A stretch of DNA of 64,000 nucleotides, from assembly GCF_003590145.2 (NCBI RefSeq), contig NZ_CP060436.1, positions 840,001 through 904,000 of the forward strand. The letters run 5' to 3'. Under the pieces are notes generated by a model. The model was given only the letters and a program-made list of their open reading frames with translations, ran no database searches and had not been told where the DNA came from. Positions 14,344 through 20,059 of the stretch are shown one piece after another (the stretch's first letter is position 1; each line of letters starts with the position of its first letter). Origin of the DNA: Pseudooceanicola algae (GTDB taxonomy: Bacteria > Pseudomonadota > Alphaproteobacteria > Rhodobacterales > Rhodobacteraceae). A program made the translations under genes and the position numbers.

Positions 14344-15384
14344 ATGGCACAGATCACCCTGTCCGGCGTGAAGAAGGTCTATGCAGGTGGCGTCGAGGCC
14401 GTGAAGGGCGTCGACCTGGAAATCGGAGACGGCGAATTCGTCGTCTTCGTCGGCCCCTCGGGCTGCGGCAAGTCCACCTTGTTGCGCATGATCGCAGGTC
14501 TCGAAACCATATCCGAAGGCGAGATCCGCATCGGCGACCGCGTCGTGAACGAGGTCGAACCGGCGGATCGCGACATTGCCATGGTATTCCAGAACTATGC
14601 GCTATATCCGCATATGTCGGTGCGCCAGAACCTGGCCTACGGCTTGCGCAACCGTCGCATGGCGCGGGCCGAGATCGACCGCCGCATTGCCGACACCGCC
14701 GCGATCCTGCAGATCACCGATTTCCTGGAGCGCAAGCCGCGCGCCCTGTCGGGGGGCCAACGTCAGAGGGTCGCCATGGGCCGCGCCATCGTGCGGGATC
14801 CGGCGGCCTTCCTGTTCGATGAACCGCTCAGCAACCTCGATGCCAAGCTGCGGCTGCATATGCGCGCTGAAATCAAGCAATTGCACCGCCGTCTGTCCAC
14901 CACGTCGGTCTATGTCACCCATGATCAGCTCGAGGCGATGACCCTTGCGGATCGCCTTGTGGTGCTGAACGGCGGGCGGATCGAACAGGTGGGCAAGCCG
15001 CTTGATCTGTATCGGCGCCCGGCCTCGATCTTTGTGGCCGGCTTCCTTGGCGCGCCGGCGATGAACCTCTTTGACGCCCATGTCGATGGCGGTGTGCTGC
15101 GCATCGGTGGCGCGCGTCTGGCCGAAGGAGTCGCGGCCGCGGGTCACGTCACCGCCGGTCTGCGCCCCGAGGATATCACCACCACGGTGCGTCAGGGGGG
15201 TAACTTCCGCCTCGATTTCGTCGAAGAGCTGGGCGCGCTGCGCCTGTTGCACGGGGTTCTGCAAGGCCAGCGCACGGTGATTCAGACCGGCCTGCAGGGC
15301 GACCTTGGCCCCGAGATGGACCTCTCCATGCGCGCGCAGGACCTGCACCTGTTCTCGAAATCCGACGGGCAGCGCCTGCTTTAA
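14344..15384 (+). CDS. ugpC: sn-glycerol-3-phosphate ABC transporter ATPase UgpC
   Basis: 346 residues. ATPase core: Walker [10 protein letters not shown] (38-46), Q loop [12 protein letters not shown], signature LSGGQRQRV, Walker [14 protein letters not shown], and H loop [11 protein letters not shown]-terminal TOBE-type regulatory domain follows (GLRPEDI near 275). MalK/UgpC subfamily. Energises UgpAE import of glycerol-3-phosphate. Last gene of the operon; the next coding start is 84 bases on. Confidence 0.93.
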
Positions 15385-15467
15385 TGCAGGCCGCCTATCG
15401 GTGGTGGAAAGACCGGGCCCCGGACGCTATCCTTCGTCCCGAACGGGCTGGGCAAGGGGTCGGACAG

Positions 15468-16151
15468 ATGGATGCAAGCGGCGAGGCCAGCTGGATCGAG
15501 CGGTTCGAGGGGCTGTCTCGCCTGCCGCAGGATCTGCGGGACGAATTGGAAAATGGCAGCCGGATCGTCTCGATCCCGGCGGGTACCCAGATCTTTGCGC
15601 CCGGCCAGTCGCCCGAGCATCTGTTGATGCTGCTGGAAGGCACGGTGCGGGTGCAGCAACGCTCTGACACCGGGCGCGATGTTTTTCTGTACCGGGTCCA
15701 TGCGGGGGACAGCTGCGTGTTGTCCACCGCCTGCATGCTGGCCTTCGAGGAGAATACCGCGGACGGCACGGCCGAGACCGACATTCGCGCCGTTGCCATA
15801 CCGCGCGCGACCTTCGACAGCCTTGTCGCGCATTCCGCCATGTTCCGCGAATTTGTCTTTCGTGCCTATTCGCGCCGCATCACCGATCTGCTGACGCTGG
15901 TCGATGACCTCGTGTCGCGGCGCGTCGATGTGCGCCTGGCGGGGCGGTTGCTGGAACTGGCCGATGCGCGGGGCAGGGTTCACGCCACGCATCAGGTGCT
16001 TGGCACCGAACTTGGCACTGCGCGCGAAGTGATCTCACGCACCCTGGCGGAATTTCAGCGCCGCGGCTGGATCGAACAGGCGCGCGGAGAGATCCGTCTG
16101 GTCGAAGCGGACCGCATTTCCGCCTTTCTACGCGGGCCGGATGCGGCCTGA
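15468..16151 (+). CDS. Crp/Fnr-family regulator with exactly two cysteines, heading a sulfur module
   Basis: 227 residues from ATG 15468 with AAGGGG upstream; a longer frame reaching back to the ugpC stop lacks support. Cyclic-nucleotide-type beta barrel at about 35-130 and a winged HTH at about 165-215 (VLGTELGTAREVISRTLAEF). The protein has only two cysteines, Cys83 and Cys89 (DSCVLSTACML), both in the effector barrel, and none of the N-terminal Fe-S ligands of FNR. This arrangement, with persulfide-processing genes immediately downstream, suggests a thiol-based sulfur or redox sensor. A TGTGA-type palindrome lies 53 bases after its stop. Sensor role is inference. Confidence 0.85.
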   Translation: MDASGEASWIERFEGLSRLPQDLRDELENGSRIVSIPAGTQIFAPGQSPEHLLMLLEGTVRVQQRSDTGRDVFLYRVHAGDSCVLSTACMLAFEENTADGTAETDIRAVAIPRATFDSLVAHSAMFREFVFRAYSRRITDLLTLVDDLVSRRVDVRLAGRLLELADARGRVHATHQVLGTELGTAREVISRTLAEFQRRGWIEQARGEIRLVEADRISAFLRGPDAA

Positions 16152-16203
16152 TCGCGGCGCGCGTCACCAATCCTATGTGCTTTTTCGAATTTATTTCCGG
16201 GCC

Positions 16204-16218
16204 TGTGACTAAGTCACC
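16204..16218. promoter_or_regulatory. TGTGA-N5-TCACC palindrome, candidate Crp/Fnr operator
   Basis: TGTGACTAAGTCACC contains a perfect 13-base palindrome GTGACT-A-AGTCAC, located 139 bases before pmpA and just after the Crp/Fnr regulator gene. Half-sites match the CRP/FNR recognition type, with a spacer of five instead of six. Confidence 0.5.
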
Positions 16219-16356
16219 GTCGCCTATGGGCCCCCCGTGCCAAACAGGATGCAACAGACGGATCGGCTGCGTTGTCGGCGCCGGTCGGGGAAGGCCCCGA
16301 CCCGGTGCCGAAGCCTGCGCTGCGTCGAAGAGGCCTGAGAGCCAAGGAGAATATCG

Positions 16357-16791
16357 ATGACCGAAACTGCATTCACACCGCTGGTTTCCGCAGCGGGCGG
16401 CGCGCTGATCGGGTTGGCGGCCGTGGCGCTGCTGGCCCTGTTCGGACGGATCATGGGGGCGACAGGCATCCTGGCCGGCGCCGTGATCGAGCGCCCGAAG
16501 GGCGACACGAGCTGGCGATGGGCGTTGCTGGCCGGCATGGTCACCGCGCCGCTGCTTTACCTGATCACGACAGGCGGATTGCCGGTGGTGACTGTCACCG
16601 CCAGCACGCCGATGCTGGTGATCGGGGGGCTGCTGGTCGGGCTTGGCGTCACCTTCGGGGGCGGGTGTACCTCCGGTCATGGGATCTGCGGGATGGCGCG
16701 GCTGTCGCCCCGGTCCCTGGTCGCCACGGTCAGTTTCATGATCGCGACGCTGATCACCGTCTATCTTGTCCGCCATGTGTTCGGAGGCTGA
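16357..16791 (+). CDS. YeeE/YedE-type sulfur transport half, PmpA-like
   Basis: 144 residues from ATG 16357 with AAGGAGA upstream. Four hydrophobic segments. The motif GGGCTSGHGICGMARLSPRS is the cysteine-bearing signature of YeeE/YedE proteins, which pass thiosulfate or other sulfur species through the membrane via conserved cysteines. This is the 'A' half of the two-gene form (PmpA/PmpB of plant pathogens, next to Blh). pmpB starts one base after the stop. Confidence 0.85.
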   Translation: MTETAFTPLVSAAGGALIGLAAVALLALFGRIMGATGILAGAVIERPKGDTSWRWALLAGMVTAPLLYLITTGGLPVVTVTASTPMLVIGGLLVGLGVTFGGGCTSGHGICGMARLSPRSLVATVSFMIATLITVYLVRHVFGG

Positions 16792-16792
16792 A

Positions 16793-17233
16793 ATGCGTAT
16801 CGTTCTCTACTATTTCGTCGGCTTGCTCTTCGGTCTCGGGATCTCGGTCTCGGGCATGATCAACCCGGCCAAGGTGTTTAATTTCTTCGATGTTGCCGGA
16901 TCCTGGGATCCGTCGCTGGCCTTCGTGATGGGCGGGGGGCTGGCCGTGGCCCTGCCGGGCTTCGCGATCGTGCAACGAGGCGCCCGCCCACTGTTCGGGT
17001 CCGGGTTCCTGATGCCGCAAACCTCGGTCATCGACCTGCGCCTGATCGGCGGCTCGGCCGTCTTCGGCATCGGCTGGGGCCTCGCGGGCTTCTGTCCCGG
17101 TGCGGCCATCCCGGCTCTTGGCACCGGACAACCGCAGGTCTTCCTGTTCGTTGCGGCCCTTTTGGGCGGCATGTGGCTGGCCCGCCAGCCCTGGCGCCGG
17201 ATCGGGTCCGGCACCTTGCGCGCCAAAAGCTGA
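16793..17233 (+). CDS. YeeE/YedE-type sulfur transport half, PmpB-like
   Basis: 146 residues from ATG 16793 with GGAGG upstream. Four hydrophobic segments; the second half-signature is GWGLAGFCPGAAIPALGTG with the conserved cysteine. It complements the PmpA-like half to build a complete YeeE-like unit. Basic C-terminal end. The downstream MBL hydrolase start lies 42 bases after the stop. Confidence 0.85.
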   Translation: MRIVLYYFVGLLFGLGISVSGMINPAKVFNFFDVAGSWDPSLAFVMGGGLAVALPGFAIVQRGARPLFGSGFLMPQTSVIDLRLIGGSAVFGIGWGLAGFCPGAAIPALGTGQPQVFLFVAALLGGMWLARQPWRRIGSGTLRAKS

Positions 17234-17274
17234 TACTGTCCCATCAGATCATCCCAATGCCCAAGGAGGGTAAC

Positions 17275-18162
17275 ATGCAAGACTATGCCACCGATCTCGG
17301 CCTGAAGCCCGAAGTCACCGGGTTCTTCGACGAGGCCACCAACACGATTTCCTATGTCGTCAAGGATCCCGCAAGCACGGCCTGCGCGATCATCGATTCC
17401 GTCATGGACATCGATTATGCCGCCGGGCGCATCAGCTATGACCACGCCGACCGGATGATCGCCTTTCTGCGCGACAACGGCCTGACGCTGGACTGGTTGA
17501 TCGAGACCCATGTCCATGCCGACCACCTGTCCGCCGCGCCCTATATCCAGGGCAAGCTTGGCGGCAAGCTGGGGATCGGCGCCGGGATCACCGAGGTGCA
17601 GGAAACCTTCGGCAAGGTCTTCAACGAAGGCACGGAATTCCAGCGCGACGGCAGCCAGTTCGACCGGCTGTTCCGGGACGGGGACCGTTATACGGTCGGT
17701 GGAATGGAATGTGTCGCGCTCCATACACCCGGCCATACCCCGGCCTGCATGACCCATGTGATGGGCGATGCGGCCTTCGTCGGCGACACGCTGTTCATGC
17801 CCGACGGCGGCTCGGCCCGGGCCGATTTCCCTGGTGGGGATGCCGCAGAGCTTTACGATTCGATCCAGAAGGTCCTGAGCCTGCCGGACGAAACCCGCCT
17901 GTTCATGTGCCACGATTACGGGCCCGGCGGGCGCGAAATCCGCTGGGAAACCTCGGTCGCAGAGCAGAAGGCGCACAACATCCACGTCGGAAATGGCACC
18001 ACGAAGGAAGACTTCGTCCGCTTCCGCACCGAACGGGATGCAAAGCTGTCGATGCCCAAGCTGATCATCCCGTCCTTGCAGGTGAACATGCGGGGCGGCA
18101 ACCTTCCCCCCGAAGACGAGGACGGCAAGCGCTATATCAAGGTGCCGCTCAACGGCCTCTGA
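17275..18162 (+). CDS. MBL-fold persulfide dioxygenase-like protein (Blh/ETHE1 type)
   Basis: 295 residues from ATG 17275, with a strong AAGGAGGG. Metallo-beta-lactamase fold: THVHADHLSA (HxHxDH), HTPGHTPAC, GDTLF and CHDYGPGG, i.e. the mononuclear-iron ligand set of ETHE1-type persulfide dioxygenases. Such enzymes oxidise glutathione persulfide to sulfite; Blh of Agrobacterium/Xylella (BigR operon) is the closest context match, also next to PmpAB-type genes. Sulfite or sulfate produced here could be handled by the SulP protein that follows. Cytoplasmic; no signal peptide. Confidence 0.88.
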   Translation: MQDYATDLGLKPEVTGFFDEATNTISYVVKDPASTACAIIDSVMDIDYAAGRISYDHADRMIAFLRDNGLTLDWLIETHVHADHLSAAPYIQGKLGGKLGIGAGITEVQETFGKVFNEGTEFQRDGSQFDRLFRDGDRYTVGGMECVALHTPGHTPACMTHVMGDAAFVGDTLFMPDGGSARADFPGGDAAELYDSIQKVLSLPDETRLFMCHDYGPGGREIRWETSVAEQKAHNIHVGNGTTKEDFVRFRTERDAKLSMPKLIIPSLQVNMRGGNLPPEDEDGKRYIKVPLNGL

Positions 18163-18217
18163 ACCGGGTCTGCACGGGACCTTAACCCGGACCTGATCAG
18201 GCTTGTGTCTGCACCCC

Positions 18218-18312
18218 GGACAGCCTTTAGCTGACCCTTCCATGGGCGCCGGCCCGTTCGGCGTCCCAATTCCCCGACCAGCCTTCGGGCTGACGTTAGC
18301 CAAAGGCTGTCC
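18218..18312 (+). ncRNA. Structured leader of the SulP gene, resembles the sul1 RNA motif
   Basis: A long stem pairs 18218-18235 with 18295-18312 (16 of 18 positions complementary, the two others G-U or A-C type). It encloses two hairpins: GGGCGCCG/CGGCGTCC (7 pairs plus one G-U) and CAGCC-TTCG-GGCTG with a stable UUCG tetraloop. The 3' arm contains AAAGG (18302-18306), the ribosome-binding site for the ATG at 18314, so pairing would block translation. The sul1 RNA motif is described upstream of sulfate-transporter genes in alphaproteobacteria and often has stable tetraloops; assignment to it is inference. Confidence 0.65.
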
Positions 18313-18313
18313 G

Positions 18314-20059
18314 ATGACCCCGCTTGCCACCCTGCGCCGCTACCTGCCGATCCTCGACTGGGGGCGGCGGTATGACCGCGCGAGCCTGCGCAACGATCTG
18401 GTGGCCGCGGTGATCGTGACGATCATGCTGATCCCTCAATCGCTGGCCTATGCAATGCTGGCGGGGCTGCCGCCCGAAGCGGGGCTTTATGCCTCGATCG
18501 TGCCGATCCTGCTCTATGCGATCTTCGGCACCTCGCGCGCGCTTGCTGTCGGGCCGGTGGCGGTGGTGTCCCTGCTGACCGCCTCGGCATTGGGAGAGGT
18601 CGCAGCCCCCGGCAGCGGCGCCTATGCCGCCGCCGCGCTGACGCTTGCCTTCCTGTCGGGGGCGGTGCTGCTGGCGCTTGGCCTGTTGCGGCTTGGTTTT
18701 CTGGCGAATTTCCTCAGTCACCCGGTGATTTCGGGCTTCATCACCGCCTCCGGGCTGCTGATCGCGGCGGGGCAGTTGAAACATGTGCTGGGGGTTCCGG
18801 CAGGGGGCGAGACGCTGATCGGGATCGGGCTGTCGCTGGCGGGCCATCTTGGCGATGTGCAGGGGGCGACCCTGGCCATCGGCGGCGGCGGGATCGTCTT
18901 TCTGCTTTGGGTACGTCGGGGGCTTGGACCCTTCCTGCGCCGGCTCGGCCTGGGGGCCGGAGCGGCGGACATGGCGGTCAAGGGCGGGCCGGTCGTGGCC
19001 GTCATCGCCTCGACCCTGGCTGTGCGGGCCTTCGGGCTGGCCGATCAGGGCGTTGCGGTGGTCGGTATCGTACCGCAAAGCCTGCCGCCCCTGACGCTGC
19101 CGGCGTTTTCGCCGCAATTGCTGCGCGATCTCGCGGTGCCTGCGCTGATGATTTCCGTGATCGGCTTTGTCGAATCCGTTTCGGTGGCCAAGACGCTGGC
19201 GGCCCGCAAACGCCAGCGCATCGACCCGGATCAGGAACTGATCGGTCTGGGCGCGGCGAATATCGGCGCGGCCTTCACCGGCGGCTTTCCGGTGACGGGG
19301 GGCTTTTCACGTTCGGTCGTCAATGCAGATGCGGGGGCGGAAACACCGGCGGCCGGGGCCTTTACCGCCGTCGGGCTGGGCATTGCGGCCATGTCGCTGA
19401 CCCCGCTGCTGCATGATCTGCCGAAGGCGACCCTTGCGGCGACGATCATCGTGGCGGTGCTGAGCCTGGTGGATCTGTCGATCCTGCGCCGCACCTGGCG
19501 CAACGCGCGCCCCGATTTCGCGGTGGTGGCGACGACCATCCTGCTGACCCTGCTGATGGGCGTCGAGATCGGCGTCGGGGCGGGCGTGATCCTGTCGCTG
19601 GCGCTGCATCTTTACAAGACCTCTCGCCCTCATGTGGCCGAGGTCGGCCTGATCCCCGGCACTCAGCATTTCCGAAATGTCCTGCGTCATGACGTCGAAA
19701 CCGCGCCGGGTCTGCTGATGCTGCGCGTCGATGAAAGCCTGTTTTTCGTCAATGCCCACATGCTGGAAGACCTGCTGCGCCTGCGTCTGGCCGCGGATCG
19801 CGGGATTCGCGACGTGGTTCTGATGTGCTCGGCGGTGAATGTGGTCGATTTCTCGGCCGAGGAAGGGCTTGAGGCGCTGAACCACATGCTGCGCGATGCC
19901 GGGATCGGTTTGCACCTGGCCGAGGTCAAGGGCCCGGTGATGGACCGGCTGCGCGACACCCATTTTCTGCACGACCTGAACGGCAAGGTCTTTCAGTCGC
20001 AATTTGACGCCTGGGTGGAACTGACCGGCACCGCAGGCCCGCAGCGGGCTGCCGAATAG
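18314..20059 (+). CDS. SulP-family anion (sulfate) transporter with STAS domain
   Basis: 581 residues from ATG 18314; AAAGG is 7 bases upstream, inside the leader stem. Ten or more hydrophobic segments; SulP signatures MLIPQSLAYAMLAGLPPEAGLYAS near residues 40-65, FLSHPVISGFITASGLLI and GGFPVTGGFSRSVVN. Cytoplasmic C-terminal STAS domain from about 450 (LMLRVDESLFFVN ... DFSAEEGLEALNHML). SulP proteins move sulfate, bicarbonate or related anions; the persulfide genes upstream and the sul1-like leader favour sulfate or sulfite. Confidence 0.9.
   Translation: MTPLATLRRYLPILDWGRRYDRASLRNDLVAAVIVTIMLIPQSLAYAMLAGLPPEAGLYASIVPILLYAIFGTSRALAVGPVAVVSLLTASALGEVAAPGSGAYAAAALTLAFLSGAVLLALGLLRLGFLANFLSHPVISGFITASGLLIAAGQLKHVLGVPAGGETLIGIGLSLAGHLGDVQGATLAIGGGGIVFLLWVRRGLGPFLRRLGLGAGAADMAVKGGPVVAVIASTLAVRAFGLADQGVAVVGIVPQSLPPLTLPAFSPQLLRDLAVPALMISVIGFVESVSVAKTLAARKRQRIDPDQELIGLGAANIGAAFTGGFPVTGGFSRSVVNADAGAETPAAGAFTAVGLGIAAMSLTPLLHDLPKATLAATIIVAVLSLVDLSILRRTWRNARPDFAVVATTILLTLLMGVEIGVGAGVILSLALHLYKTSRPHVAEVGLIPGTQHFRNVLRHDVETAPGLLMLRVDESLFFVNAHMLEDLLRLRLAADRGIRDVVLMCSAVNVVDFSAEEGLEALNHMLRDAGIGLHLAEVKGPVMDRLRDTHFLHDLNGKVFQSQFDAWVELTGTAGPQRAAE

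Follow-up and report, generated by a model that had tools for sequence, protein, structure and literature searches.

A predicted leader stem that buries the ribosome-binding site of a SulP transporter gene in one lineage of Pseudooceanicola

In the window analysed here (a stretch of 64,000 nt of the Pseudooceanicola algae genome), the gene for a SulP transporter is preceded by a structured leader: a long closing stem around two hairpins, the 3' arm of which contains the Shine-Dalgarno sequence (SD) of the gene. What computation yields directly is that this leader folds, and does so better than chance would have it, that its SD is buried and that relatives lack the element. Among the genomes searched, sequence comparison indicates a lineage-specific stem, confined to this lineage. 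RBS-occluding leader stems are familiar from translational attenuators, RNA thermometers and translational riboswitches; the element is thus of a known kind and is a new, lineage-restricted example of it. Whether, for as long as it stays closed, it depresses SulP translation in comparison with the upstream genes is, in our estimation, an evenly balanced question. The features concerned, all on the plus strand, are as follows.

16357 to 16791, plus strand: YeeE/YedE-like half, with a weak Sulf_transp match just below the Pfam cut-off
16766 to 17233, plus strand: second YeeE/YedE-like half (DUF6691)
17173 to 18162, plus strand: metallo-beta-lactamase-fold gene upstream of SulP, its GTG start set mechanically by the ORF tool
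18217 to 18235, plus strand: 5' arm of the closing stem, holding CCUUU (18224-18228), the partner of the SD
18243 to 18268, plus strand: nested hairpin A, 10 bp with one bulged U and the loop CCCGU
18279 to 18292, plus strand: nested hairpin B, 5 bp with a C(UUCG)G tetraloop
18295 to 18313, plus strand: 3' arm of the closing stem, its last base adjoining the SulP start codon
18302 to 18306, plus strand: SulP SD, AAAGG, read from the sequence, 7 nt before the AUG and inside the stem
18314 to 20059, plus strand: SulP transporter, 581 aa, with a C-terminal STAS domain

The identification of the gene as a SulP transporter in the initial annotation is borne out by Pfam (Sulfate_transp and STAS), and its start (ATG, 18314-18316, immediately 3' of the stem) is backed by ortholog alignments that begin near residues 1-10. 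The neighbourhood is also as first described, with SulP downstream of the two YeeE/YedE-like halves and of the metallo-beta-lactamase-fold protein, which is probably a persulfide dioxygenase. Between the stop of the latter gene (18162) and SulP lies a gap of 151 nt. A Crp/FNR-type regulator gene (15384-16151) stands directly before the YeeE/YedE-dioxygenase-SulP genes and may control transcription of the cluster. Near the SulP leader, no sigma-70-like promoter turned up. An intrinsic terminator was considered and rejected, no stem followed by a T run being found in 16000-18700. The candidates for a leader peptide, the ORF from GTG 18205 to TGA 18234 and the in-frame starts TTG 18203 and ATG 18242, have, by eye, no well-placed SD.

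The closing stem pairs 19 positions on each side, with 17 Watson-Crick pairs, one G-U (18233/18297) and a single 1x1 mismatch (18229/18301); 12 perfect pairs come first, then the mismatch, then six pairs including the G-U. The initial annotation had put the arms at 18218-18235 and 18295-18312, which is correct to within a base, but each side of the real stem is one base longer. Its other structural statements survive intact. The fold of 18200-18330 has a minimum free energy (MFE) of -63.5 kcal/mol (z -5.49) and none of 200 shuffles was as good; both of the expected hairpins, including the one with the UUCG tetraloop, are present; and in this most stable fold the AAAGG of the ribosome-binding site is paired with the CCUUU of the 5' arm. 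The segment CAGCCUU of hairpin B (18279-18285) is an alternative partner for the SD-bearing 3' arm. The sequence CAGCC-TT-(G)GCTGAC occurs, with variations, three times within 18221-18309 (at 18221-18235, at 18279-18294 and, on the minus strand, at 18295-18309), which gives the element several competing pairings.

How unusual this is within the genome was gauged on a 464 kb sample of it. If arms of 19 nt, 17 or more matches and a gap of 30-90 nt are required, the 464 kb contain just 3 distinct inverted-repeat sites, as against 0-1 in second-order Markov copies. The raw MFE is less extreme: 124 of 19,263 windows of 97 nt fold at least as well (top 0.7%), a rank that reflects the GC-richness of the genome. 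The cost of opening the region from SD to AUG at the SulP start is, at 20.9 kcal/mol, the highest among 385 sampled starts (mean 7.9, sd 3.3; the starts come from our own simple ORF caller and a few will be wrong). By our own estimate, a Gumbel fit to the tail of these 385 starts predicts about a dozen genes at such a cost in a genome of some 4000 genes, so the burial of the ribosome-binding site is extreme rather than unique. An inverted repeat elsewhere, with 29 perfect bp around a 5-nt loop (L144:3007-3069, equivalent to C1:423007-423069 of the same genome), makes the strongest hairpin of the 464 kb sample. We rejected an origin of the leader in a mobile element or a MITE bounded by terminal inverted repeats, since the genome shows a single copy and lacks a second pair of such arms.

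The proposed mechanism is as follows. In the 151-nt gap, CCUUU would fold onto the SD in a stem reaching the base before the AUG, and with the SD paired to this upstream anti-SD-like sequence, as in other RBS-occluding stems, the closed form should block initiation. If it forms in the cell, such a stem would lower SulP output and may have been selected for doing so; on a transcript shared with the upstream genes, it should hold SulP initiation low relative to theirs. Wherever between 18100 and 18217 the transcript begins, opening the SD-to-AUG region is predicted to cost 20-23 kcal/mol, a figure that drops to 6-14 kcal/mol without the 5' arm. The stem might be opened, or this arm removed, by a passing ribosome, by RNA processing, by a helicase or other protein, or by transcription that starts internally. 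With the 5' arm gone, a weaker hairpin (18279-18285 with 18303-18309) would still cover the SD, the CAGCCUU of hairpin B pairing with AAGGCUG. Ordinary translational coupling would presumably leave the stem closed, as about 55 nt separate it from the stop of the upstream gene. The window's leader differs from RBS-occluding leaders in general in having neither thermometer-like melting nor a conserved aptamer. An RNA thermometer was rejected since the stem is too stable, the SD being paired with a probability of 0.97 at 37 C and still 0.90 at 65 C. The most economical reading would be that the stem constitutively holds SulP back in comparison with the upstream genes. Should the stem indeed work as a lock, then one lineage has turned down a sulfate/sulfite transporter in a sulfur-oxidation cluster by gaining a single stem, with no need for a dedicated riboswitch; otherwise, this is ordinary mRNA structure.

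The leader has no counterpart in the relatives that we searched. Neither 22 genomes of the genus nor 395 of the family yielded a homologous leader, two other matches in the family set being short and borderline; there is consequently no conservation or covariation that would show selection. The closest SulP ortholog, from Pseudooceanicola sp. HF7 (76% identical), has an SD segment, ACAAAGGCGCTTCCCATG, that includes AAAGG like that of the window, but the opposing arm is absent. When the leaders of 103 orthologous loci (98 of them distinct) were folded, the mean opening cost of the distinct ones was 5.7 kcal/mol and the window's leader had the maximum, which suggests that SulP genes generally need no such lock; in most of them the ribosome-binding site is open, often behind a GC-rich hairpin. 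The test for covariation in orthologous leaders, the lack of which the initial annotation had named as a refutation, went against a conserved element, as the stem does not persist in the orthologs. On eight aligned leaders the pairs of the window's structure occupy 56.8% of cells, compared with a shuffled mean of 52.6% (35 of 500 shuffles were as high), and those of the closing stem 52%. Being unrelated in sequence, the leaders align poorly, and the pair count is therefore to be read as an absence of support rather than as strong counter-evidence.

The main rival to the RBS lock is that the stem is incidental or purely structural, an intercistronic element that protects or divides the mRNA, its overlap with the ribosome-binding site being an unselected accident of the lineage. 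We give this reading an appreciable, if clearly less than even, chance. It draws on the fact that the window's version of the stem is not conserved, and on the structures that occupy the equivalent gap in other Rhodobacteraceae. A strong GC hairpin ends 15-35 nt before SulP in 25 of 43 orthologous leaders, with the ribosome-binding site open, as against 9 of 81 other co-directional gaps at the same loci (the p-value of 7e-8 is overstated because the sequences are related), and SulP leaders are on average more structured than these control gaps (mean z -2.21 versus -1.36). This hairpin covaries, with two-sided changes in 7 of its 11 pairs, in a set of 15 leaders that were selected for having it (L006, L008, L011, L014, L020, L023, L024, L029, L030, L036, L038, L042, L047, L076 and L081). 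A covariance model built from the ortholog hairpins, R1, gave 27 matches in 149 family genomes (E<=0.01), of which only 2 (L174 and L177) are at SulP; a distinct RNA family was accordingly dropped as not SulP-specific, and we read the ortholog hairpin as an intercistronic stem-loop common at the SulP position rather than as a new RNA class. The likeness to the window's leader is nevertheless limited to strong structure in the same gap. The Rhodobacteraceae stem-loops end about 20 nt before the AUG and leave the ribosome-binding site free, whereas the window has no such hairpin there, R1 finds no match in its leader, and its stem runs exactly to the base before the AUG and buries the whole SD. 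Moreover, arms as good as these are rare in the genome (the 3 sites per 464 kb mentioned above), which also sits awkwardly with an accident.

The competing pairings invite readings in which the leader responds to a signal. One is a young, lineage-restricted cis-regulatory RNA, in which the 5' arm (18217-18235) and hairpin B (18279-18292) would take turns as partner of the SD arm, so that SulP translation would follow a sulfur or stress signal; we think this very unlikely. A ligand-sensing riboswitch for a sulfur compound is likewise very unlikely. Its position directly before a sulfur-related transporter would suit it, as would the several mutually exclusive pairings of the SD arm and the 5' arm, but orthologous leaders contain no conserved core or aptamer, even within the genus, both of the main alternative folds hide the SD, and Rfam gives no match.

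Equally slight is the probability that the arms act as DNA, each being a copy of the imperfect palindrome GGACAGC-CTTTA-GCTGACC to which a regulator would bind. The stretch 18218-18236 is itself a near-palindrome; 18294-18312 repeats it in inverted and weaker form, and 18276-18294 is a third stretch related to it. However, the copy at 18294-18312 sits on the SD, a placement for which the RNA reading accounts directly, and with up to 2 mismatches the motif is no commoner in the genome than its reversed control (59 versus 77 sites), a frequency that led us to reject a regulon-wide operator.

Membership of the sul1 RNA family (RF03058; a 56-position model with a gathering threshold of 36.2 bits), to which the initial annotation had likened the leader, can for practical purposes be dismissed. 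The resemblance is one of general position: in both cases a cis element with hairpins precedes an alphaproteobacterial SulP gene. Against membership, the covariance-model search that had been proposed as a check returned no score: at gathering thresholds, Rfam finds two tRNAs in the whole window and no match to RF03058, and a local scan of 18100-18400 at E<=10 gives nothing. The anatomy and sequence differ as well. The sul1 RNA has 56 nt, two tandem hairpins and the conserved sequence GGACCCGG..CCGGGUGGCU..CCGGCCGCC..CCGCCGG, with no closing stem over the SD, whereas in the leader of the window, set beside the sul1 loci L002 and L003, one long stem closes over two dissimilar hairpins in place of a tandem conserved pair. 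The SulPs behind true sul1 RNAs are only 25-27% identical to that of the window and belong to a different subfamily. With strict filters, sul1 was found in two of 60 mixed relatives, both outside the window's family, and six of 289 genomes of the class passed the cut-off under equally strict filters, none from this family (of which the sample holds few genomes); with such filters it was not found in the Rhodobacteraceae genomes searched. The leader is thus cleanly set apart from sul1, and a ligand hunt built on that likeness would mislead.

The SulP leaders of several relatives of the same genus (L121 and L128-L136) carry an AT-rich palindrome, ACATATTC...TATATGT, that does not occur in the leader of the window. 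It may resemble the operators of SqrR/BigR-type persulfide-sensing repressors.
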